DNA of 64,000 bases from contig NZ_CP030032.1 of assembly GCF_003258315.1 (NCBI RefSeq), positions 3,474,501 to 3,538,500 on the forward strand, written 5' to 3'. Each line of letters begins with the position of its first letter. The stretch's first letter is position 1. The DNA is from Bradymonas sediminis. GTDB taxonomy: Bacteria > Myxococcota_A > Bradymonadia > Bradymonadales > Bradymonadaceae. Shown here piece after piece: positions 4,740-27,795 of the stretch. The notes beneath the pieces are model-generated. The model was given only the letters and a program-made list of their open reading frames with translations. It was not told where the DNA came from and searched no databases. Position numbers and translations under genes: made by a program.

Positions 4740-4743
4740 AAAG

Positions 4744-4817
4744 CGGGGCGGACGAGACTCGAACTCGCGACCTCTGGCGTGACAGGCCAGCGTTCTAACC
4801 AACTGAACTACCGCCCC
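4744..4817 (-). tRNA. tRNA-Asp (GTC), copy 2
   Basis: 74 nt on the minus strand. The 7-bp acceptor stem GGGGCGG/CCGCCCC, the anticodon arm CTGGC-CTGTCAC-GCCAG and the TTCGAGT T-loop are all present. Anticodon GTC reads Asp codons. CCA is not encoded. Identical to the copy at 4872-4945. Confidence 0.96.
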
Positions 4818-4871
4818 TTTCGGGGTTTGCATCGAGCAACTCAAAAACTTAGCGGAAGGGGGTGAAACAAG

Positions 4872-4945
4872 CGGGGCGGACGAGACTCGAACTCGCGACC
4901 TCTGGCGTGACAGGCCAGCGTTCTAACCAACTGAACTACCGCCCC
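4872..4945 (-). tRNA. tRNA-Asp (GTC), copy 1
   Basis: 74 nt, identical in sequence to the tRNA at 4744-4817, with anticodon GTC in loop CTGTCAC. It is the middle member of the minus-strand cluster Val-Asp-Asp. Confidence 0.96.
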
Positions 4946-5028
4946 GTATCCACTAAATTGTCATCTCGAAAGATGTTGCTCTCACTCAAGTTGTCCCCAA
5001 GCATCTGAGAACATCTGCTCGGAAGACA

Positions 5029-5100
5029 TGGGCACACCTGGGATCGAACCAGGGACCTACTGCTTGTAAGGCAGCCGCTCTCCCGCTGAGCTATGCGCCC
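5029..5100 (-). tRNA. tRNA-Val (TAC)
   Basis: 72 nt. Acceptor stem GGGCGCA/TGTGCCC with one G-U pair, anticodon loop CTTACAA with anticodon TAC, and TTCGATC T-loop. First gene of the minus-strand tRNA cluster. Confidence 0.95.
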
Positions 5101-11894: not shown

Positions 11895-12275
11895 GGAAAC
11901 TCCTCAAATGTGTAGGGTTGAGTTAGTGCAATTTTATGGCGAGCTTTGGAAGGCAATGCCTAAAAAAACGAGGGCGTAATCTTCGCGACATCCCTGATGA
12001 ACACCGCGCACACGCCCGCTCGCCTGCATAATAATACTTAATTCAATACGCCGTAATTTAAGACGAGATTCTGACCTCAAATCACTACGGTGCGCGTTTT
12101 GTCATGTTCCCCCGCCAAGTGCAAGCACACTCACGACGATTTTGCGCGCTCCGACGCGCGCGCCAGGCGCCCGCAGCGGGTTATAGAAGCCATCTTTAAC
12201 GATAAAAGCCCCGCACCCAGATGACGGATACGGAGCTCAAACAAGGCGTACTGACCAATCGTTTTTGATACTTCA
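11895..12275. other. Intergenic region upstream of tig
   Basis: 381 bp between tig and the tRNA-Leu gene. Apart from the tig Shine-Dalgarno next to 11894, I see AT-rich patches around 12030-12060 that could hold the tig promoter, but no recognisable -35/-10 pair, CIRCE element or reading frame. Confidence 0.5.
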
Positions 12276-12358
<83 letters not shown>

Positions 12359-12387
12359 AGTTTTATGTCCCAACCCTCCGACAAGAA

Positions 12388-12416
12388 AGCCGAGTCGAAA
12401 TAAATCGAACTCGGCT
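12388..12416 (-). terminator. Possible weak terminator between tRNA-Arg and tRNA-Leu
   Basis: Inverted repeat AGCCGAGTCGA/TCGAACTCGGCT with one bulge, followed on the minus strand by TTTCTTG. The T run is poor, so it may be a processing hairpin rather than a terminator. Confidence 0.35.
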
Positions 12417-12440
12417 ACCTGACATAAACTTGAAACAAAG

Positions 12441-12514
12441 TGCGCCCGGTAGGATTCGAACCTACGACCATCGGATTCGAAGTCCGGTACTCTATCCAGC
12501 TGAGCTACGGGCGC
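12441..12514 (-). tRNA. tRNA-Arg (TCG)
   Basis: 74 nt. Acceptor GCGCCCG/CGGGCGC is perfect, and anticodon loop CTTCGAA gives anticodon TCG. Located between tRNA-His and tRNA-Leu on the minus strand. Confidence 0.95.
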
Positions 12515-12595
12515 TGGCTCTTTTTATCGTCTCAACCCTTGGTCCTCATCTTATGAGGTTGGGCGTGAGATTTTCAAAAAGAGGAAGTTCTAAAG

Positions 12596-12670
12596 GGTGG
12601 GTGACGGGGGTCGAACCCGCGACCTCAGGCACCACAAGCCTGCGCTCTAACCAACTGAGCTACACCCACC
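12596..12670 (-). tRNA. tRNA-His (GTG)
   Basis: 75 nt including the extra 5' G (position -1) that is the identity element of tRNA-His, paired to the discriminator C. Anticodon arm CAGGC-TTGTGGT-GCCTG gives anticodon GTG. First tRNA of the minus-strand His-Arg-Leu group. Confidence 0.95.
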
Positions 12671-13951: not shown

Positions 13952-16900
13952 ATGAACTTAACCTGTCCCGCTTGTTCGACCCCGGTTTCGGTTGACTCAT
14001 CTCGCGTACCGGCCGACGGCCTAACCGTACGCTGCCCGCAGTGCGCGCACTCCTTTTTATATATCCCGAAGAAGGCCGCGGCCCCGGCCGCGCCGCCGGC
14101 GTTCGGTGGCCCCGGTCGACTCGGCGCGCCGAGCAGCTTCGGCGTGCGTTATTTCATCAAGCGCCCCACGGGCAAGATCTTTGGGCCCTTCGACACGAGC
14201 GCGATCCGCGCCATGCTCGACGCGGGCAAGCTAAGCGTCGACGCCGAGGTCTCCCCAGACCAGACCGATTGGCAAGGCCTGGCCGACGTGGAGGCGTTCG
14301 CCGACCTGGCCCACACGATCGCCCAGCGCGACAACGCGCCGATTCCAAGCCAGGGATTTGGCCGCCCAACCCCCGGCGGGACCATGCTGGGCGCGTGGGC
14401 GGACGCCGATGAGAGCGAAGGGACCGACGAGGACGCGGCGCTACCGCGCCTCGCGCCGCCGCAGTTGCCGCGCCCGCAGACGAGCGGCAGCGGCCTCGAC
14501 CTGCCCAAGCCGCAATCGCCTCGACTCCCCGGGCTGCCGGGGCTTCCGACGCCGAGCAGCGCGTCTTCTGACAAGGCCACACGCCCTCCGCAGTTGCCCA
14601 AGCGCCGGGAGCTTAACCTCCCGAGCCTTAAGGCAAACCTGCCAAAACCCAAAGGCATGCCCGGGCTGCCCGGTGTTGCGCCGAGTTTACCGGCGTCGGC
14701 CGGCGGGCTTCCGCAGAGCAAGGCGGCGGACAACCTCCCCGGCCCCCAGCAGAGCCTCCCCGGGCGGCGCACTCAAGACGATCTACCGGCGACCCGCGCG
14801 CACGAACTTCCGGTGCCCGCGGAGGCAGAGTTGCCCGATCTGCCGACCCAGGAGGTCACGTCCTGGACCCACAATAACGACCTCTTCGGCGACCCGAGCC
14901 CCAACGAGGACCTCTTCGCGGATTCACCCGCCGACGACGACCTCTTCGCGGATTCACCCGCCGACGACGACCTCTTCGCGGATTCACCCGCCGACGACGA
15001 CCTCTTCGGCGACGCACCCGCCGACGACGACCTCTTCGGCGACGCACCCGCCGACGACGACCTCTTCGGCGACGCACCCGCCGATGACGACCTCTTCGGC
15101 GACGCCCCCGCCGACGACGACCTCTTCGGCGCGCGAGACAATAATAGTAGCCTCTTTGACGCCCCCAGCGACGTCCCCGCCCAACACCACGCGTCGGTTG
15201 AGTCCGACGCCGCCGGCTTCGATATGGGCGGCGCCCTCGACGCAAACGCCTTTGGCGACGGCGCCGACGACCTCTTCGACGCCCCCGGCCAAGAGGAGGA
15301 CGACGATGACCTCTTCGCCGCCCCCGGGCTCGGCGCCGACGATGACCTCTTTGAGCCGAGCGGACTCGACCTGGATGACTCGTCGAATCTGCTCGAGAAT
15401 AACGACGACTTCCTGTCGGACGATGATAATTTCACGTTCCTCGACGAGCCGTCGCAGCCGCAACAAGACGACCTGGCGGGCATGTCGGGCGAATGGGGCG
15501 ACGACTTGATGAGCGACGCGCCGGTCATGGACGCCTTTGACTCCGGGCGCCACGACGACGCGAGCGATTGGCAGCAGGACGAGTGGAGCGGCGGCCAAAG
15601 CACGTCGGCGCCCGCCGCCGCGCCGCGCTTCGCCGCCGAGGCGCCCATCCCCGAGAGCTCGGAACCGCGCCAGCCCGCGTCCCGCGGCGTCGCGGCGCAG
15701 GTCACGCGCGATGAGGCGGTCGACGCCGATAAGAAGCGCGGCACCATGACCATGGTCGGCCTCTCCCTCTTGGGCGTGATGCTCGTAGGCGGCATTGGCT
15801 ACGGCGTTTACAATAGCTTTGCGAACTCCGAGCCGGCACAGGTCGAACAACCCGTCGCCCAGAAAGCGGCGCCTGCGCGCGTCGATCTCGCCGCGGTTCA
15901 AAGCGACACCTACGGCGAACTTCGCGCCCTCATCGACACCGCCCGCAAGGGAAAGCTCGGCGCCGAGGACCAGGCGAAGCTGTTGCTCGCCGAGTCGCTG
16001 CTGCTGAGCCGCTATGATGACGCCGATATCCAACAGCACGCGGAGTCCCTGGCCAAACCGCTTGCGGACGCCGCCGGCGGATGGGAGGCGCTGGCGCGCG
16101 GGGCGTTCGAGGCCCAGAATGGCAACGCCGACGCGGCCCGCGCCTACCTTGAGCAATTGGTCGACGAAGACGACGAGATCGCCTATTTCGCCCATCTTTT
16201 GATGGGCATGGGCGATGCGCTCGCCGTCGAGAAGCAGCTCGCTCCCGCCGACGCAAGCGCCGCCGCGCCGCGCGCGGTCCAGGACACGGCAGAAGCAGCG
16301 AAGGAAGCTGAGCCGACCGAGGTCGCCAGATCCAACGAAGAAGCCGCCAACGAAGAAGCCGCCAACGAAGAAGCCGCCAGCGGAGAAGATGCGCCCGAGA
16401 CGGCCGAAGCCCCCGAGGCAGTCGCCAAGCGCGATGAGGCCAATGCCCCGTTGAACGACGCCGCCAAGCGCATCGCCGCGCGCGGCGACAGCGCCCTGGC
16501 TGCCGCCCAGAAACTTCGCCCCGACGCGCCCGCTCCACAGTTTTGGCGCGCTCAGATGATGGCACATACCGGCGATATCGACGGCGCCATTAAGACCTGG
16601 AAGGCGGCCCTAAAATCCTCCGAGAGCCACGTCGCCTCGAGCCTTAAACTCGGCGAAGTCTTTTATGAGCGCGGCGACCTCAATAACGCGTCGACCGAGC
16701 TCAGCGGCGTCACCGACAAATTCCAGGCCCTCGCCGCCCCCGGCGAGCGCGCCAGCGCCCTGCACCTGCAAGGTATGATTCACGTGGCCCGCCAGGAGAG
16801 TGACGAGGCCATCAAAGCGCTGACCACTGCGCTGAGCATCGACGTGAGCCGAAGCGACACGATCCAGGCCCTCGCCGAACAATATATGTCGGCCGAGAAA

Positions 16901-18367
16901 TACCAGGAGGCGCTCAACTTCTTCACCACCAATAAGAACCTGGGCGCCGAGAACCCGGACGTGATGCTCGGCATCGTGCGCGCCTATATGGGCCTGGAGA
17001 AGTGGAATGACGCGACCGAGCAATTGCAGCGCGGCGCCAAGCTCTTCCCCGAAGACGCCCGCTTCCCGCTCTATCTGGGTCGACTGCACCGCGACCGCCT
17101 CGCCTATTTCGACGCCCAGAAGGCGCTGACTCAGGCCCTGAAGATCGACGCGAGCCTCTTGTCGGCCCACGCCGCGCTGGCCCAGTTGATCTGGATCACC
17201 GACAAGGATCTGGAGGCCGCCCAGAAGCATATCAAGGCGGTGGAGGCCGAGCCGGAGCGCATCGACGCCGCGGTGGGCACCGAGGTGGCCAAATTCTACG
17301 AGATGAGCAAGCAGCGCGACCTCGCCGAGCAGCGCTACGCAGCCACGCTTAAGCGCCACCCCAACTATTGGCCGGCGCGCCTGGCGCTGGCGCGCATGTA
17401 CCTGGACACCCAGGAAAACGAGAAGGCGCTCGAGCTCCTGGAGCGCGCCAAAGCCGAGGGCGTCAAAGACCTGCGCCTGTCGGCTTATCTGGCCGACGCC
17501 TACCGCCAATCGCGCCACTTCGCCAAGGCGGTCGACCAGATCAACGCGGTGGTCGCCGAGCACGCCGACAACCCGCATTATATCTTCATCCGCGGCCGGA
17601 TCTATTTCGACCAGGGCAACTTCGACAACGCCCGCGAAGACTTCATCAAGGCTTACGAGCTCGACACGCGCTTCCACGACGCCTATTTTTACCTGGGCCG
17701 CACCGACTTCGCCCAGCAAGACTACGCCCAGGCGATGAAGGTCTTCCGCCACGTCCTGGACTATAAGCCCGAGAACGGCGAGTACCGCTACTGGATGGGA
17801 CGCTCCTACGAGGCTGAAAAGCGCCTCACCTCGGCCCTCGACGAGTACCGCAAGGTGACCGTCGTGGACCCCGCGTTCGGCCAGAAGAACCCCGAAATAT
17901 TCGTGCGCCGCGGAGAGTTACTCTCCAAGCTTGGCTACTCGAAGAAGGGCAAGGAGGACATCGCCACCGCGCTGCGCATCAACCCGAAGATGACCCAAGC
18001 CCTGGTGGCCATGGGGAACTCGGACTTCCGCGACAAGCTCTATGAAGACGCGATCGTCAACTTCCAGCGCGCGCTGGAATTAGACGCCGAGCAGGCCGAG
18101 GTGCAGTACAAGCTCGGCATGGCGCTGATGTACACCAACCGCGAGGTTAAGGGCGCCGAGCACCTCCAGCTGGCGGTGCGCTACGGCTACGAAGACCCCG
18201 AGGTCTTCCAGACCCTGGGCTACCTATATAAGCGAATGAACCGGCGCAACGCCGCGATCGACTCGTTCAAGAAGTACCTGACCCTGGTCGCGGACAAGCA
18301 ATCGGTGACGGCGAAAGCCAAGCGCGAAATTATTCAGCAGATCGACGAACTCGGCGGTCGCCTTTAA
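13952..18367 (+). CDS. Giant zinc-ribbon, GYF-like, acidic-repeat, membrane and TPR protein
   Basis: 1471 residues. Order of parts: MJ0042-type zinc ribbon at the N-terminus (CPAC at 5-8, CPQC at about 28-31); a GYF_2/DUF4339-like domain (about 70-120, with the sequence GKIFGPFDTSAI); a long Pro/Leu-rich and Asp-rich disordered region holding eight decapeptides of type DLFGDAPADD (residues about 310-390); one transmembrane helix (about 600-622); an Ala/Glu-rich stretch with EEAANEEAAN repeats; and about fifteen TPR-like helical pairs from about 690 to the end. The topology suggests a cytoplasmic zinc-ribbon/GYF half and a periplasmic TPR half. Similar zinc-ribbon/GYF/TPR architectures are found in myxobacterial gliding-motility proteins such as AgmX-type proteins; function here is inferred only as a protein-interaction scaffold. 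The next gene starts 16 bp later, so the two are probably cotranscribed. Confidence 0.9.
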   Translation: MNLTCPACSTPVSVDSSRVPADGLTVRCPQCAHSFLYIPKKAAAPAAPPAFGGPGRLGAPSSFGVRYFIKRPTGKIFGPFDTSAIRAMLDAGKLSVDAEVSPDQTDWQGLADVEAFADLAHTIAQRDNAPIPSQGFGRPTPGGTMLGAWADADESEGTDEDAALPRLAPPQLPRPQTSGSGLDLPKPQSPRLPGLPGLPTPSSASSDKATRPPQLPKRRELNLPSLKANLPKPKGMPGLPGVAPSLPASAGGLPQSKAADNLPGPQQSLPGRRTQDDLPATRAHELPVPAEAELPDLPTQEVTSWTHNNDLFGDPSPNEDLFADSPADDDLFADSPADDDLFADSPADDDLFGDAPADDDLFGDAPADDDLFGDAPADDDLFGDAPADDDLFGARDNNSSLFDAPSDVPAQHHASVESDAAGFDMGGALDANAFGDGADDLFDAPGQEEDDDDLFAAPGLGADDDLFEPSGLDLDDSSNLLENNDDFLSDDDNFTFLDEPSQPQQDDLAGMSGEWGDDLMSDAPVMDAFDSGRHDDASDWQQDEWSGGQSTSAPAAAPRFAAEAPIPESSEPRQPASRGVAAQVTRDEAVDADKKRGTMTMVGLSLLGVMLVGGIGYGVYNSFANSEPAQVEQPVAQKAAPARVDLAAVQSDTYGELRALIDTARKGKLGAEDQAKLLLAESLLLSRYDDADIQQHAESLAKPLADAAGGWEALARGAFEAQNGNADAARAYLEQLVDEDDEIAYFAHLLMGMGDALAVEKQLAPADASAAAPRAVQDTAEAAKEAEPTEVARSNEEAANEEAANEEAASGEDAPETAEAPEAVAKRDEANAPLNDAAKRIAARGDSALAAAQKLRPDAPAPQFWRAQMMAHTGDIDGAIKTWKAALKSSESHVASSLKLGEVFYERGDLNNASTELSGVTDKFQALAAPGERASALHLQGMIHVARQESDEAIKALTTALSIDVSRSDTIQALAEQYMSAEKYQEALNFFTTNKNLGAENPDVMLGIVRAYMGLEKWNDATEQLQRGAKLFPEDARFPLYLGRLHRDRLAYFDAQKALTQALKIDASLLSAHAALAQLIWITDKDLEAAQKHIKAVEAEPERIDAAVGTEVAKFYEMSKQRDLAEQRYAATLKRHPNYWPARLALARMYLDTQENEKALELLERAKAEGVKDLRLSAYLADAYRQSRHFAKAVDQINAVVAEHADNPHYIFIRGRIYFDQGNFDNAREDFIKAYELDTRFHDAYFYLGRTDFAQQDYAQAMKVFRHVLDYKPENGEYRYWMGRSYEAEKRLTSALDEYRKVTVVDPAFGQKNPEIFVRRGELLSKLGYSKKGKEDIATALRINPKMTQALVAMGNSDFRDKLYEDAIVNFQRALELDAEQAEVQYKLGMALMYTNREVKGAEHLQLAVRYGYEDPEVFQTLGYLYKRMNRRNAAIDSFKKYLTLVADKQSVTAKAKREIIQQIDELGGRL
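14879..15132 (+). repeat. 30-bp tandem repeats encoding acidic decapeptides
   Basis: Eight 30-bp units plus a partial ninth. Three encode DLFADSPADD and four encode DLFGDAPADD, preceded by one diverged unit DLFGDPSPNE. Units within each class are almost identical at DNA level, including synonymous sites, which indicates recent expansion by slippage or unequal exchange. DLF motifs in acidic context are classic short linear interaction motifs. Confidence 0.95.
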
Positions 18368-18383
18368 GTAGTTTTACGCACCT

Positions 18384-20579
18384 ATGAAGAATGTATTTCT
18401 CATCACCGATGACGCCGCGCTGCGCCGCAGCGTCGAGCAATGTGCCCAGGCGCATCGCCTCGACGTCCAGGCGACCGCCCAATGGGCGGATGCGCGCGAC
18501 ATCCTTATTAAGACGCATTTTGACGCGGTTTTCATCGACTATGAGGTCATGAAACTCGAGGGTCTCGATGCGTTTATTTTGCTGGATAATGTGCTCCAGA
18601 AAGAGAGCACCATCGCGTCGTTGATTCTGCGCAAACCCTCCGCGCGTGCCAGCCAATTCATCGACTCGCTGGCCTCCTTTGGCCCGGCGATCGAACTCGA
18701 CGGCAAACCGCCGACCCCCGAGACGCTGCAAGCCCCCTTCGACGCGTGCGTGCGCAGCGCGACCAAAGCCGCGCCCCAGCAGGACGTCAACCAAAGCAGC
18801 CACGGCCCGCTGCTGGTTGAAGTTCACCTGACCACCGCCCGCGAAGGCACCTTCGCCGACGTCAGCCTGGCGCGCGCGCTCTATACCCTGGCGTTCACCG
18901 CGGCGTCGGGCACTCTCTTCCTAAAACACGACACCCTCGAGCATCACTATCCGGTCTTCGAGGGCCGACTGCGCCGGCCCTACGACGCCCGCTACTCGCC
19001 GCTGTCGACCCTGGCGAAATCCTTCGCGTGGAGCCGCGGGAGCTATCGCTTCACCCCCGAGCCGATCGCCGACGGCCCGACCGAAGACCCGTATCGATTT
19101 ATCTACCTGAGCATCGAGCGCCATATGCCATCGCGCGAGGTCATGCAGGCGATGATGCCGCATATGCGCGCGTTCCCGGTGCGCACCAACCACTGGCAGG
19201 CGCGCACCGAGAGTTTGCGGGACCTGGCGATTTTGCACCGGTTTATGCAGGCCTGCGACGGCCAGACCACCCTTGAGCGCGCGCTGGGCTCGCTGGGCGC
19301 CGACGCGACCCGGGGGTTCCAGGCGGCGCTATATGCTGTCGAGACCGACCTGCTCTCGCTTCGCGCGGAGCCGACCTTCCAGAGCGTCAGCATCCAATAT
19401 AACCGAGAGATCGCGCGCTTTCGCCAGCAACAGGTGGACGCCCAGACCAAGGACTCCAAGGCGTATCGGGCGCGCGGCAGCGGGCGAGCCAGCCTGGAGG
19501 CTGAACTCACCGAATTCTTGGAGCGCCTGGAGCACGCCACGCCCTACGAGATCTTCGGCGTGTGGGAGGGTTGTGGGCGTGAGATCATCCGCTCGAAATT
19601 CTATGAGATGGTCAAGCAACACCATCCGGACGTGTATGGCGGCAACATTTCAGGCGACGTGAAGCGCCTGGTCCAAGAGATCTTCATCACCATCAAGGAC
19701 ACCTACGAAGAGCTGATGAAGATCGAGGGCGAGCAGCGCCGGCCTCGCCCGGAGCCGACGCCCGCGGACCACGCGCCCGGGCCGCGCCTGGGGAACCCGC
19801 GCTCGTTTGGGTCTGAGTCCGCGCCGACGCGCCCGGCCATCCCGCGGGCGATGCCCCACACGAGCACCTCGCGCGCCGACGCGCCTCGCCCCAAGCTCTC
19901 GCAGCCCAAGGCGACGCCCTCCGCCGGGGCCGACGCGACCGCGCCCACCAGTTCGCGCCAATCCCGGATCGAGCGCCTCAAGGTCAAACGCAGCGCCACG
20001 CCCATCGGGCTGGGCCGCGAACCCTCGACCCCCATCATCGCCGCCAAGCCGCGCGCGCGCACCGAGTCCCAGGCCGACCGGCGGGCAAAGCTTGCTCGAA
20101 TCCGCACCAACTCCAGCGGCGGAAGGTCAAATACCGGGATGCTGCGCGCCGCCGACACCGCCGCCAACGCCTTCAATGAGGGCTATAGCGCGTGGCGCGA
20201 AGGCGACAACACTAAATTGGCCGCCGAGCGCTTCGCCACCGCCTATAACTTGGAGCCGGGCAACGGCAAATATATGACCTTTTACGGCTACTTCCTCTTC
20301 TTGCAGGACGCCGCTAACCTCGACGACGCTCTGCGCACGGTGGAGAAAGCGATCGAGTTTAAGGACCGCCAATCCCTGCCCGACGCCCATGTCTTTATGG
20401 GCCACCTGCTCAAGGTCAAAGAGGAGCATAAAAAGGCGCTTCGCCACTACCAGATCGCCCTGCGACTCAACCCGAAATCTCGCGACGCATTGCGCGCGAT
20501 CCGCCTCTATGAGAAACGCCACGGCGAGGCCGGCAATGCGGACAGCTCCCCCTTTTGGAAAAACTTGTTTAAGAAGTGA
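18384..20579 (+). CDS. Receiver / DUF4388-like / J-domain / TPR protein
   Basis: 731 residues with four parts. Residues 1-120 resemble a response-regulator receiver, with acidic pair D9-D10 and Asp52 in FIDYEV at the phosphoacceptor position. Residues about 150-260 resemble the DUF4388/PATAN interaction domain (sLxxLLxxL..SGTLFL pattern). Residues about 385-455 form a divergent J domain with the essential HPD motif at 414-416, which stimulates the Hsp70 ATPase. A basic, Pro-rich linker (about 455-595) leads to C-terminal TPRs (about 595-700). The Hsp70 gene 160 bp downstream is a natural partner. Whether the receiver is phosphorylated is unknown, and its Thr and Lys switch residues are not clearly conserved. 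The weak Shine-Dalgarno suggests coupling with the upstream TPR gene. Confidence 0.87.
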   Translation: MKNVFLITDDAALRRSVEQCAQAHRLDVQATAQWADARDILIKTHFDAVFIDYEVMKLEGLDAFILLDNVLQKESTIASLILRKPSARASQFIDSLASFGPAIELDGKPPTPETLQAPFDACVRSATKAAPQQDVNQSSHGPLLVEVHLTTAREGTFADVSLARALYTLAFTAASGTLFLKHDTLEHHYPVFEGRLRRPYDARYSPLSTLAKSFAWSRGSYRFTPEPIADGPTEDPYRFIYLSIERHMPSREVMQAMMPHMRAFPVRTNHWQARTESLRDLAILHRFMQACDGQTTLERALGSLGADATRGFQAALYAVETDLLSLRAEPTFQSVSIQYNREIARFRQQQVDAQTKDSKAYRARGSGRASLEAELTEFLERLEHATPYEIFGVWEGCGREIIRSKFYEMVKQHHPDVYGGNISGDVKRLVQEIFITIKDTYEELMKIEGEQRRPRPEPTPADHAPGPRLGNPRSFGSESAPTRPAIPRAMPHTSTSRADAPRPKLSQPKATPSAGADATAPTSSRQSRIERLKVKRSATPIGLGREPSTPIIAAKPRARTESQADRRAKLARIRTNSSGGRSNTGMLRAADTAANAFNEGYSAWREGDNTKLAAERFATAYNLEPGNGKYMTFYGYFLFLQDAANLDDALRTVEKAIEFKDRQSLPDAHVFMGHLLKVKEEHKKALRHYQIALRLNPKSRDALRAIRLYEKRHGEAGNADSSPFWKNLFKK

Positions 20580-20741
20580 TTTCGACCTAAAGTACCGGCC
20601 CCAAGGGAAATCGCATCGGTTCCGGGAGGCAGCTCAAACGACGGCTTTACGCAGCGGCTCTGCGGTCATCTGACCGCCCCATATGGGCAGGACGCGCACG
20701 CACGACACCACGATTAAGTTCATTGCAAGGTATAGAAGATC

Positions 20742-22295
20742 ATGGGAAAGATAATTGGAATTGACCTCGGAACCACCAACTCCTGCGTCGCGGTGATCGA
20801 AGGTCGCGCGCCGCTGGTCTTGCCCAATTCGGAAGGCTCGCGCACCACCCCGTCGATGATCGGCTTCACCGAGGAGGACGAGCGCTTCGTCGGCCAGCAG
20901 GCCAAGCGCCAGGCGATCATCAACCCCGAGCGCACCGTCTACGACATCAAGCGCCTGCAGGGGCAAAAATATAACTCCGAGGTCATGCGCGAGATCTCGA
21001 GCACCCTGCCCTATGAGATCGTGGAGAATACCAACGGCGACGCCTGGGTCCAGGTCAACGGCCAGCGCTATAGCCCGCAGGAGATCTCGGCGATGTTGCT
21101 CGCCAAGATGAAGAAGACCGCCGAGGACTATTTCGGCGAAGAGATCAACGAAGCGGTCATCACGGTGCCGGCGTATTTTAACGACGCCCAGCGGAGCGCG
21201 ACCAAAGACGCCGGCAAGATCGCCGGGCTCACGGTGCGCCGCATCATCAACGAGCCGACCGCGGCGGCCCTGGCCTACGGCTACGCCAAAACCGACGACG
21301 CCAACCTGGTCGTCTTCGACCTGGGCGGCGGCACCTTCGACGTCTCCGTGGTGCGGCTGCGCGGCGGGCTCTTCGAGGTCGCGGCGACCTGCGGCGACAA
21401 CCAGCTCGGCGGCGAGGACTTCGACCAGGTGATCCTGAAATTCTTGCTCGAGCGCTTCAAGAACGAGTCTGGCATCGACCTGAGCGGCGACCGCATGGCG
21501 ATTCAGCGGCTCAAGGAAGCCGCCGAGAACGCCAAATGCGAGCTGTCCACGCTCACCGAGACCAATATCAACCTGCCGTTTTTGGCCGTCGACGATAACG
21601 GCCCGCGCCACCTGTCGCTGGCGCTGTCGCGCTCGCAGCTGCTCGACCTGGTCTTTCACCTGATCGAGCGCCTCGAGGCGCCGTGCCGCACCGCCATGAA
21701 AGACGCCGGGGTGACCCCGGAGGACATCAGCGACGTGCTGCTGGTCGGCGGCATGACGCGCATGCCGCTAGTCCAGGAGAAGGTCGAGCAGATCTTCGGG
21801 CAGAAACCAAGCAAAGGCGTCAACCCCGACGAGGTCGTCGCCGTGGGCGCCGCGATCCAATCCGGCATCCTGGGCGGCGAGGTCAAGGAGGTCATCCTGC
21901 TCGACGTGACGCCGCTGAGCCTGGGTATTCGGGTCGCCGGGGACCGCTTCAGCCCGATCATTCACAAGAATACCTCGATCCCCACGCGCGAAACCAAGGT
22001 CTTCACCACCACCGAGACCAACCAGGATATGGTCACCATCACGGTGCTCCAGGGCGAGGAGCCCGTCGCCAGCGACAACGCGCTGCTGGGGACGTTTAAC
22101 CTGACCGGCATCCCCCCGCAGCCCAAGGGGCGCCCGCGCATCGAGGTGGCGTTTGAGCTCGACACCGACGGCATCGTCAACGTGTCCGCGCGCGACCTCA
22201 ACAGCAATAAGAGCCAGTCGATCACGGTCGAGGGGCACTCGGGCCTGTCCGACGAGGAGCTGCAGCGCGCCATCAAGCGCCAGGAATCCGCCTGA
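20742..22295 (+). CDS. Hsp70 chaperone DnaK, short form lacking the lid
   Basis: 517 residues against about 610-640 for standard DnaK. The nucleotide-binding domain is complete ([10 protein letters not shown] at the start, [10 protein letters not shown], and the GGMTRMP loop) and the beta-sandwich substrate domain is present to about residue 505. The protein ends in [14 protein letters not shown], exactly where the helical lid would begin. The DNA after the stop does not encode lid-like sequence in any frame I could read, so this seems natural rather than a frameshift. A lidless Hsp70 would bind and release clients quickly. It sits next to a J-domain protein and upstream of the receiver-GDH gene, pointing to a dedicated pair rather than the housekeeping DnaK/DnaJ/GrpE set. 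Confidence 0.94.
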
Positions 22296-22456: not shown

Positions 22457-24106
22457 ATGTCGGAGACAAAAACCACAATCGTATTGGTGGAGGATAACCC
22501 GTTGCAGCGCCGGCTTATCGAGCGCCTGATGGCGGCCGGCAGCCGCATCCCCCATGTGATCGAATCCTACGGGCACCTGGAATCCGCCCAGGAGCGGATT
22601 CGGCGCGGCGGCGTGGATCTCATCCTGCTGGACCTGGTGCTCCCGGAGACCCAGGGCCTTGAGACCTTGGCCCGGGTGCGCGCCCGCGCGCCGACGGTGC
22701 CGGTGATCGTGCTCACCGGGGTCGACGATATGGAGACCGCGGTGCGGGCGGTGAGCGCCGGCGCCCACGACTATGTGCTCAAAGACAAGCTCAGCGCCGC
22801 CCGGCTCGACCGCGCGGTGCGCTACGTGTTGGAGCGAAGCCGGGTGCGCGCCACCGAGTGGAGCTCGCCGATGCTGCGCCTGGCGCACCAGCAATTCTTG
22901 AAGGCCGCGCAATGGCTGGCGGTCGACGACAACCTGCGCCAGCGCCTGCTCTTCCCCCAGCGCACCCGCCTGGTCAGCTTCCCCTTCCGGCGCGACGAAT
23001 ACGACCAGGTCGAGACCGTCTTCGGCTACCGGGTCCAACACCTCCTCACCATGGGCCCGACCCTGGGGGGCATGCGCTACCACGAAGACCTTAGCCTGGG
23101 AGATATCTCGGCGCTGGCGTTTTTGGCGACCTGGAAATGCGCGCTGTTTCGCCTGCCCTTTGGCGGGGCAAAAGGCGGGGTGCGCATCGACCCCAGCACG
23201 CTGAGCAACGACGAATTACAGCGGGTCACCCGGCGATTTATCTTCGAATTATGCGACGTCATCGGCCCCGAGCGCGACGTCATCGCCCCGGGGCTGGCCG
23301 GCCAGGAGAACGCGATGGGCTGGGCGATGGACACCTATAGCCAGCAGCGCGGCTATACCGTGGCGGGCGTGGCGACCGGCAAGCCCGAGGTCCTCGGCGG
23401 GCTGCCCGGCTTCTACACGATGAGCGGGGTCGCCATGGCCTATATCAGCGCCAAAGCCGCGGACTACGCAGACATCGAGGTCGAGGGCGCCCGCGCGGTG
23501 ATCCAGGGCTTCGGCCACGTCGGGCGCCACGGGGCCCAGGCGCTGCAGGAGCGCGGGATGCGCGTCGTGGCGATGAGCGACGCCTCCGGCGGGCTCCATA
23601 ACCCCGACGGGCTCGACCTCGACGCCCTCTACGCCTGGGTGGACTCAACCGGCGCGATGCACGGGTTCTCCGAGGCCGACCCCATCTCACACCCCAAACT
23701 TTTGGAGCTCGACTGCGAGTTCCTGGTGCCGGCGACCCGCCGCGCCCAGGTCACCGCCGAGAACGCCGCGCGCCTGCAATGCCGCGTGCTCATCGAGGGC
23801 GCCAACGGCCCCACCAGCGCCGACGCCGACGAGATCCTCCAGGAGCGCGACGTCCTGGTGGTCCCCGACCTGCTGGCGGCCGCCGGCGTGACCATCGCCT
23901 CCTATTTCGAATGGCTCCAGGACGCCCAGCGACAACGCTGGTCCGAGGCGAGAGTGCAGCAGCGCCTCTTCGCCCTGCTCGACGAGGCGTTCGCGCGCAC
24001 CTGGCAACGCGCCCAAGCCGAATCGGTTGACCTGCGCAGCGCCGCGATGCTCGAGGCGGTCGGCCACGTCGCCCAGGCCAAGATGGCCAGGGGGCTCTTC
24101 CCATAA
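22457..24106 (+). CDS. Receiver domain fused to glutamate/leucine dehydrogenase-like protein, catalytic Asp missing
   Basis: 549 residues. Residues 1-125 are a full receiver: acidic pair E12-D13, phosphoacceptor Asp59 in LLDLVLPE, Thr87 and Lys109. Residues 135-549 are a Glu/Leu/Phe/Val dehydrogenase with conserved TWKCAL (Lys227), FGGAKGG (Lys239), dinucleotide loop GFGHVG (351-356) and ASYFEW near 482. Two active-site residues are changed. The Lys that binds the substrate side-chain carboxylate in GDH (GP-x-KGG) is Leu203 (GPTLGG), as in leucine dehydrogenases. The catalytic Asp of the APD motif is Gly279 (IAPGLAG). Loss of this Asp should strongly impair catalysis, so the protein may be a ligand-sensing pseudoenzyme whose state is set by phosphorylation. 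The downstream kinase and HPt are likely partners. Confidence 0.92.
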   Translation: MSETKTTIVLVEDNPLQRRLIERLMAAGSRIPHVIESYGHLESAQERIRRGGVDLILLDLVLPETQGLETLARVRARAPTVPVIVLTGVDDMETAVRAVSAGAHDYVLKDKLSAARLDRAVRYVLERSRVRATEWSSPMLRLAHQQFLKAAQWLAVDDNLRQRLLFPQRTRLVSFPFRRDEYDQVETVFGYRVQHLLTMGPTLGGMRYHEDLSLGDISALAFLATWKCALFRLPFGGAKGGVRIDPSTLSNDELQRVTRRFIFELCDVIGPERDVIAPGLAGQENAMGWAMDTYSQQRGYTVAGVATGKPEVLGGLPGFYTMSGVAMAYISAKAADYADIEVEGARAVIQGFGHVGRHGAQALQERGMRVVAMSDASGGLHNPDGLDLDALYAWVDSTGAMHGFSEADPISHPKLLELDCEFLVPATRRAQVTAENAARLQCRVLIEGANGPTSADADEILQERDVLVVPDLLAAAGVTIASYFEWLQDAQRQRWSEARVQQRLFALLDEAFARTWQRAQAESVDLRSAAMLEAVGHVAQAKMARGLFP

Positions 24107-27100: not shown

Positions 27101-27421
27101 GGACAGCGCGCCGTCGACGCTTTTGAGGTCGCCAAATTCGACCTTATCCTGATGGACGTGCGCATGCCGAATCTCAACGGCTTCGAGGCGACCAAAGCGA
27201 TCCGGCGCCTCGAAGAGGGCACCTCCTCGCACACCCCCATCATCGCCATGACCGCCCACGCGATGAAGGGCGACCGCCAACTCTGCCTGGACGCCGGCAT
27301 GGATGATTATATCGCCAAACCGCTCAAAGCCGACGCCCTCCACCAGGTCATTCAACGTGTCATGGACAAGTCGGCGCCGAATTCAGACTCAGCCGACGCC
27401 AACGATCCCCCAACCCAATGA
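24173..27421 (+). CDS. CHASE-type hybrid sensor histidine kinase with two receivers
   Basis: 1082 residues. Transmembrane helix 1 at about 26-47, a periplasmic CHASE-like ligand-binding domain (about 60-335), transmembrane helix 2 (about 343-365), a coiled linker, a PAS domain (about 400-525), a dimerisation/phosphoacceptor domain with His564 in SHDIRTPMNG, an ATPase domain with N, G1 (DTGPGIEE) and G2 (GTGLGLTIA) boxes, then receiver 1 (Asp854 in LLDQNMPE) and receiver 2 (Asp995 in LMDVRMPN). An AGGAG Shine-Dalgarno precedes the ATG. It lies 66 bp after the receiver-GDH gene and overlaps the HPt gene by 4 bp, so the three form an apparent phosphorelay operon. CHASE domains sense small extracellular molecules; the ligand is unknown. 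Confidence 0.95.
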   Translation: MPAGPHTHTSLDAAAEATMPARMRARAKYWLLPTLVGIISLGVTTLAWQWLYGRDDDMVRSEFRSVAQQQAKAIQFEFDHQLAVLRALNALYLAIPDISQRDFREFNSGFVLRRRSIHGMLWVPRVKPFERQKHLEYARANIASGYQIRVLDAEGRPHLAPPKTTPYYPIDFVELRDTAPQWLLGLDLSSIPTLQKTLTQSRDRGEAMVSSPIKLPTVPQNGTFVAGFQPIYSSRASAQTVASRRQNLHGWVAVIYSVDEIVDDALREQSPTAINIRLLAPLSRTRAQRLYSLHWAETTPPKDIEVALPDYQHSEHQRVALQVPGQRWFLEFDPTRSYLSSLRTPAPNIALGGGLIATVFLVGLAISVVTRTDRIQQEVNRATHDLKKAHYQLEIRTQELEDSEKFLDDIVENLPLMIFVKTADALVYQRINRAGEILLNSHRSEVLGKTDIDLFPPEQAMAYRKNDREALKRGEMLDIESEKLVTKDSEILLQTKKIPIFDSHGNPLYLLGISEDITARVQHEEKLRSSLFELAQSREQLRRAKERAEKANRAKSEFLANMSHDIRTPMNGIVGFSELLLETDLSPRQREYVDLVDQSANSLLRLLNDILDLSKMEAGELTLEKTRFRLCDVLVQVLHTQSVHAFEKGIDLGYRMPLEMPNILLVGDRLRMRQILENLVSNAIKFTDHGQVYVEVHTLEKSEDAIALRFAISDTGPGIEEAEQERIFQAFQQIELAESSRQGTGLGLTIAARLVHAMEGEIWVESEPGVGSTFLFTLSLQIEAVPEEERIRVADAAGKRALIADDSLMNSQMIQDLLAHWKMSTQVAVTGAQALDMLLDAQSSGAGFDLLLLDQNMPEMRGTELAARIHQDPELRQIPIILMSEAGLRSLSLAESKTLKIVRNLTKPVKQTKLWEAIHECLQLPDAPAAAASSSALPHPDEGALNILIAEDDAVNQHLIRRVIEAQGHQITLCEDGQRAVDAFEVAKFDLILMDVRMPNLNGFEATKAIRRLEEGTSSHTPIIAMTAHAMKGDRQLCLDAGMDDYIAKPLKADALHQVIQRVMDKSAPNSDSADANDPPTQ

Positions 27422-27795
27422 GGCCCACGATGAACCCGAATACCCAACCGCCCGCCCCCAAACCCGCCCTCGACTGGGACGAAGCGCTCAAGCGCGTCGC
27501 CGGCAGCCAGGACACGCTGGTGGAATTAGTCGAAATATTCATTCAACAATGGCCCCAGATTATGGATGAAATCGAGCAAGGAGTCGCGCGCCAGGACTAC
27601 GTCACGCTGCACCGGGCGGCGCATACCCTGAAGGGTTCGGCGTCGATCTTTGGGGCAAAGCCCGTGGTCGAGGCCTCCGACCGGCTGGCGGAAATGGGAA
27701 AAAACGAGACCACCGCGGGCGCCGAGGACGCCCTGCGCTACCTGCAGGACGAGCTCGACCGTCTGCTGCCCGAGCTGCAAACGCGCCTACAATAG
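27418..27795 (+). CDS. HPt phosphotransfer protein
   Basis: 125 residues, a single histidine-phosphotransfer helical bundle. The active site is His69 in HTLKGSA, the classic HPt motif, and the flanking AAH...GA pattern is intact. The ATG at 27418 overlaps the stop of the kinase gene (ATGA), a sign of translational coupling; an ATG at 27430 is a possible alternative. The protein would take phosphate from a receiver of the hybrid kinase and pass it to another receiver; the receiver-GDH protein encoded upstream is the nearest candidate. Confidence 0.94.
   Translation: MRPTMNPNTQPPAPKPALDWDEALKRVAGSQDTLVELVEIFIQQWPQIMDEIEQGVARQDYVTLHRAAHTLKGSASIFGAKPVVEASDRLAEMGKNETTAGAEDALRYLQDELDRLLPELQTRLQ

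Follow-up and report, generated by a model that had tools for sequence, protein, structure and literature searches.

A receiver–glutamate dehydrogenase fusion with altered catalytic residues, encoded next to a hybrid kinase and an Hpt protein in Bradymonas sediminis

The DNA analysed here, referred to as the window, is a stretch of 64,000 nucleotides of the Bradymonas sediminis genome (contig NZ_CP030032.1, positions 3,474,501 to 3,538,500). An open reading frame on its plus strand, located exactly at 22457-24106, encodes a protein of 549 residues, in which a receiver domain is followed by a complete glutamate dehydrogenase (GDH) fold at about residues 137-549. Directly downstream lie the genes for a hybrid histidine kinase and an Hpt phosphotransfer protein, the start of the latter overlapping the stop of the former. 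The features of the locus are as follows.

22457..24106, plus strand: receiver-GDH fusion protein, 549 aa (ORF, Pfam, AlphaFold, structure match)
22478..22789, plus strand: receiver domain, residues 8-111, with E12/D13, D59, T87 and K109 intact (Pfam, residue table)
22796..22855, plus strand: helix joining receiver to GDH, residues 114-133, of similar length and conserved sequence throughout the fusions (model, alignment)
22955..23341, plus strand: GDH substrate/oligomerisation domain, residues 167-295, with K203L (codon 23063-23065) and D279G (codon 23291-23293) (Pfam, alignments)
23396..24094, plus strand: GDH coenzyme domain, residues 314-546, with R319F, T323S, N354H, N475A, G478V and V479T (Pfam, alignments; residue roles from PMC7326016)
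24173..27421, plus strand: hybrid histidine kinase of CHASE-PAS-HisKA-HATPase-receiver-receiver order, 1082 aa, predicted phosphodonor (Pfam; conserved neighbour)
27418..27795, plus strand: Hpt phosphotransfer protein, 125 aa, phosphohistidine motif RAAHTLKGS (Pfam)

Pfam analysis of the window protein detected Response_reg at residues 8-111 (E 2.9e-22), ELFV_dehydrog_N at 167-295 (E 2.1e-41) and ELFV_dehydrog at 314-546 (E 2.6e-60); both domains of the Glu/Leu/Phe/Val dehydrogenase family are thus present. The AlphaFold model, built with an alignment of 42 sequences, reached a mean pLDDT of 92.9 and a pTM of 0.79, and its GDH part matched solved GDHs with Z up to 59.7 and an rmsd of 1.4 Å over 410 residues. 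The same secondary structure was predicted for the related protein of genome G013, of which the active site is largely intact. In the receiver, the acidic pair E12/D13, the phospho-acceptor D59, T87 and K109 are common to all intact fusions, and the phospho-site is kept in every fusion copy, decayed ones included. An intact receiver joined to a GDH fold, as proposed in a preliminary description of this DNA, was therefore confirmed.

Within the GDH part, L203 is found in place of the substrate-carboxylate lysine of the GPxKGG motif, and G279 in place of the general-base aspartate of active GDH (D142 of Arabidopsis GDH1). Both substitutions, already named in the preliminary description, stand in alignments that are ungapped around the two sites for five solved GDHs, including those of T. 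maritima and T. thermophilus; a shifted alignment concealing the catalytic aspartate was thereby ruled out. No further aspartate that might stand in for residue 279 lies between D274, itself a separate conserved aspartate, and D292. Two further active-site lysines, K227 and K239 (equivalent to K102 of Arabidopsis GDH1 and K113/K125 of CsGDH), are retained as described, together with R207 and N450. The glycine loop also reads GFGHVG as described, though its sequence in every canonical fusion is G[FY]GN. The extent of the change had, however, been understated, as T282G, R319F, T323S, N354H, N475A, G478V and V479T also lie in or close to the active site and the cofactor pocket. In terms of Arabidopsis GDH1, N337, T185 and N216 of the nicotinamide pocket are changed to A475, S323 and H354, and N312 is kept as N450.

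To place these changes on a common scale, we defined 88 positions of the GDH part as near-invariant (at least 97% conserved among 49 canonical GDHs). The window protein retains 71 and differs at 17 (203, 224, 275, 276, 279, 282, 306, 316, 319, 322, 323, 326, 427, 475, 478, 479 and 537), against 0-2 in the intact fusions. The losses are enriched at catalytic and cofactor residues (5/9 versus 12/79 elsewhere; Fisher p 0.012), the nine tested residues being two other lysines and mostly those named for Arabidopsis GDH1, for which Asp142 as general base, Lys102, Thr185, Asn216, Asn312, Asn337, Arg70 and others are given (PMC7326016). As judged from these residues, the GDH part is very probably catalytically dead, and catalysis is very unlikely.

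Leucine dehydrogenases carry leucine at the first site and keep the catalytic aspartate. The preliminary description took Leu203 as typical of these enzymes, but leucine at this position is insufficient as a sign, because the aspartate is absent from the window protein; the LeuDH-like protein of the same genome retains it, within AEDSGT. An enzyme of altered substrate or chemistry, for which Leu203 and the retained K227, K239, S482 and Rossmann loop could be cited, is highly improbable: the general-base aspartate (Asp142 of AtGDH1; PMC7326016) is glycine, several cofactor contacts are gone at once, and leucine dehydrogenases, too, retain this aspartate.

The kept residues could also serve binding without catalysis. 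The GDH part might bind an amino acid, 2-oxoglutarate or a dinucleotide, and thereby tune phosphorylation of the receiver or a downstream partner; the glycine loop, R207, K227, K239 and the residues aligned with the leucine-allosteric site are kept in agreement with such a role. The latter are R260, D292 and R545, aligned with the leucine site of Thermus through GdhB numbering and possibly off by one. A ligand sensor of this kind nevertheless appears quite unlikely, since the contacts corresponding to N337, T185 and N216 of AtGDH1 have become A, S and H, the carboxylate lysine has become leucine, and most of the nicotinamide half of the NAD site is altered, while the kept residues are near-invariant family-wide and may be structural.

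A search for other receiver-GDH fusions, as the preliminary description had advised, revealed one family, with members in other Bradymonadales, in one further myxococcote (G368) and on Sinorhizobium/Ensifer plasmids. The fusion is present in G010-G013 and G015-G020, which belong to the same family of genomes as the window, and G014 has fragments or a decayed copy. The rhizobial fusions come from nine Sinorhizobium/Ensifer plasmid records, including pNGR234b, with 53-54% identity over all 549 residues. No further full fusion was found among the matches listed from a phylum sample of 379 genomes, and within the order of G368, represented by 29 genomes, its fusion stood alone. The canonical members resemble the window protein (50-62% identity) in domain order, in a near gap-free alignment over 549 residues and in the neighbouring kinase and Hpt, but differ from it in keeping K203, D279 and the NAD pocket, save for T323V and N475S in G013. 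K203 and D279 were present in 11/11 intact Myxococcota fusions and in 3/3 rhizobial ones, and K227 and K239 in all 14. Conservation of Gly279 among the fusions, raised in the same description as a point to check, was thus contradicted by Asp279 in 14/14, and a family-wide loss of the aspartate was ruled out. Because the intact fusions have Lys203 and Asp279, the class is apparently enzymatic, the window protein being a derived, decayed member.

The window genome encodes two canonical GDHs elsewhere; no second, active receiver-GDH was found in it, and an initial genome-contig scan gave one full GDH match only and no fusion. A sister group to the fusions is made up of free-standing GDHs from other myxococcotes, all of them canonical and with about 50% identity to the window protein. 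As a separate observation, the free-standing GDH of genome G041 (L050 1501-2757) has Met at the catalytic Lys (GGAMGG, not GGAKGG) with the Asp kept, and is a candidate for another natural dead or altered GDH.

In the whole-protein tree the window protein is sister to that of G013 with 100% support, on a branch of 0.68 versus 0.15. Separate trees gave 0.77 versus 0.14 for the GDH part and 0.55 versus 0.06 for the receiver. The otherwise intact G013 protein departs from the near-invariant positions only by T323V and N475S. The two sites belong to the nicotinamide pocket, and the window protein has substitutions at both; this sharing of sites suggests that cofactor contacts were perhaps loosened first. 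A second decayed lineage, a paralogue in the two genera represented by G015 and G014, is itself recovered with 100% support and comes from a different part of the family. It has lost 42 and 56 of the 88 positions, respectively, gaps counted, with the receiver intact; the G014 copy (L042) has Asp at the catalytic column but next to a deletion, so that this Asp was not counted. G015 carries an intact fusion besides the decayed copy. Since this lineage branches elsewhere in the family, catalytic decay has, from the trees, taken place at least twice, in the window lineage and in the G015/G014 paralogue.

These branch lengths bear on whether the gene is simply decaying, its GDH output jobless and the protein surviving as a mere receiver (a phosphate sink) or on its way to being lost. 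The long branches in both domains agree with decay, as does the far more eroded GDH part of the G015/G014 lineage beside an intact receiver, and relaxed selection on the window protein is possible because its branch is fast. However, in the comparison with G013 the receiver had a pairwise dN/dS of about 0.26 and the GDH part one of about 0.45, both well below 1, as an average over the two lineages with partly saturated synonymous sites; together with a GC3 of 0.90 and an open reading frame free of stops, these values argue against a plain pseudogene. Moreover, 71/88 positions are kept, the fold is well predicted, and the second decayed lineage has survived in two genera, where its kinases are intact. 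We consider plain decay unlikely; the analysis covered one Bradymonas genome.

Wherever sequence flanking the fusion gene was available, a related hybrid kinase adjoins it; this holds for the window, for G013, for both copies of G015, for G010, G011, G012, G019, G020, G014, G018 (partial) and G368, and for three rhizobial plasmids. On contigs of sufficient length Hpt comes next, either as a separate gene or fused as a domain, including at the decayed G015 copy, in G368 (where the arrangement is on the opposite strand) and in rhizobia. The H, N and G boxes and both receiver Asp of the window kinase are intact, and intact phospho-sites are found in the kinase, its last receiver and Hpt, also at the decayed loci over their sequenced extent. 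The sensor part varies, with CHASE in Bradymonadales, V4R plus PAS in G368, and a CHASE region that gave no alignment in rhizobia. This conserved gene order and the intact phospho-sites make the fusion a likely end point of a phosphorelay. At six loci of free-standing sister-clade GDHs, no kinase or Hpt directly adjoins, and one weak, distant kinase-like match lies about 5 kb off. As kinase and Hpt adjoin the fusions but not these sister GDHs, the most fitting view of the family is that of a phosphorelay output in the form of GDH. In G015, the kinase next to the intact fusion (L061 2954-5980) has a first receiver without the phospho-acceptor motif (VIVERSMAE) and an intact second receiver.

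Upstream of the fusion, 18384-22295 encodes a 731-aa protein (weak receiver match, DnaJ-like segment, TPR) and then a 517-aa Hsp70, which aligns to the Hsp70 profile (599 positions) over positions 1-516 only; its C-terminal lid seems absent. A conserved tie to this DnaK gene was ruled out, as no DnaK adjoins the other fusions.

Taken together, we favour, with a probability of roughly 60%, the reading that the three genes form a relay with a dead GDH output, the window protein being a non-catalytic descendant on an intact phosphorelay. Phosphate would pass from the CHASE hybrid kinase to its C-terminal receiver, then to Hpt, and finally to the receiver of the fusion. In the intact relatives the output would be an apparently active GDH, so that glutamate deamination would be under the direct control of phosphorylation. 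The window protein has lost the general base, the lysine for the substrate carboxylate and a large share of the nicotinamide pocket, but its fold, receiver, linker and relay are retained, apparently by purifying selection; the protein most likely acts without catalysis. The phosphorylation-controlled pseudoenzyme of the preliminary description very probably holds in this form, for the window protein only, judging from the lost catalytic residues, the intact receiver and the conserved kinase/Hpt partner. The more general find supported here is the receiver-GDH phosphorelay family.

The manner of action may be that of a phosphorylation-switched regulatory subunit associating with one of the two canonical GDHs of the genome, a tentative proposal, drawn by analogy, that we put at somewhat less than even odds. 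In Thermus thermophilus, GdhA is a catalytically inactive regulatory subunit for leucine activation in a mixed GdhA4-GdhB2 hexamer (PMC9570180). It resembles the window protein, as read here, in having a GDH fold without catalysis, and gives a precedent for a regulatory pseudo-subunit (PMC9570180); unlike the window protein, it has no receiver domain and no phosphorelay. The window protein keeps R260, D292 and R545, the residues that align with the Thermus leucine site. Bradymonadales are predators that lack many amino-acid pathways, that for leucine among them (PMC7460792), so that amino-acid control is plausible, although the auxotrophy is no evidence for it.

No account of a receiver-GDH response regulator was found in the literature searched, which consisted of titles and abstract openings and included few subscription journals. 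To our knowledge, the targets of two-component outputs are DNA, second messengers or protein partners. Response regulators with enzymatic output, such as CheB and the GGDEF proteins, are likewise a receiver plus an enzyme fold encoded with a kinase; the window protein differs in that its output is a dehydrogenase of central metabolism, here apparently dead. Direct control of a central nitrogen/carbon enzyme by a phosphorelay would, if true, shorten the path from signal to metabolism, and the rhizobial copies make such control testable in common laboratory strains. With members that are intact, partly altered (G013) or dead (window), the family would offer a natural series from enzyme to signalling part. 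Relatives in other bacteria, nitrogen-fixing rhizobia among them, have an intact enzyme behind the same kind of switch; this suggests an undescribed link between signal relays and amino-acid metabolism, and in the window protein the conversion of an enzyme to a non-enzymatic role in signalling. The broadest formulation, which we regard as rather doubtful, would be a new class of response regulators with GDH output, switched by phosphorelay in at least two phyla and at least twice turned into a signalling pseudoenzyme that controls other GDHs through mixed complexes.

Some minor observations were made on the gene surroundings. In Ensifer adhaerens (L099 1-5727) two enzymes of a route of glutamate breakdown, glutamate mutase and methylaspartate ammonia-lyase, are encoded close to the receiver-GDH gene; in S. 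chiapasense their genes are absent from its vicinity. Elsewhere in the window, 13952-18367 encodes a protein of 1471 aa, which begins in the manner of a zinc ribbon, contains consecutive, almost identical DDDLF(A/G)D(S/A)PA repeats and has a repeat-rich C-terminal half resembling TPRs. Small tRNA clusters are located on the minus strand at 4743-5100 (Asp, Asp, Val) and 12275-12669 (Leu, Arg, His).
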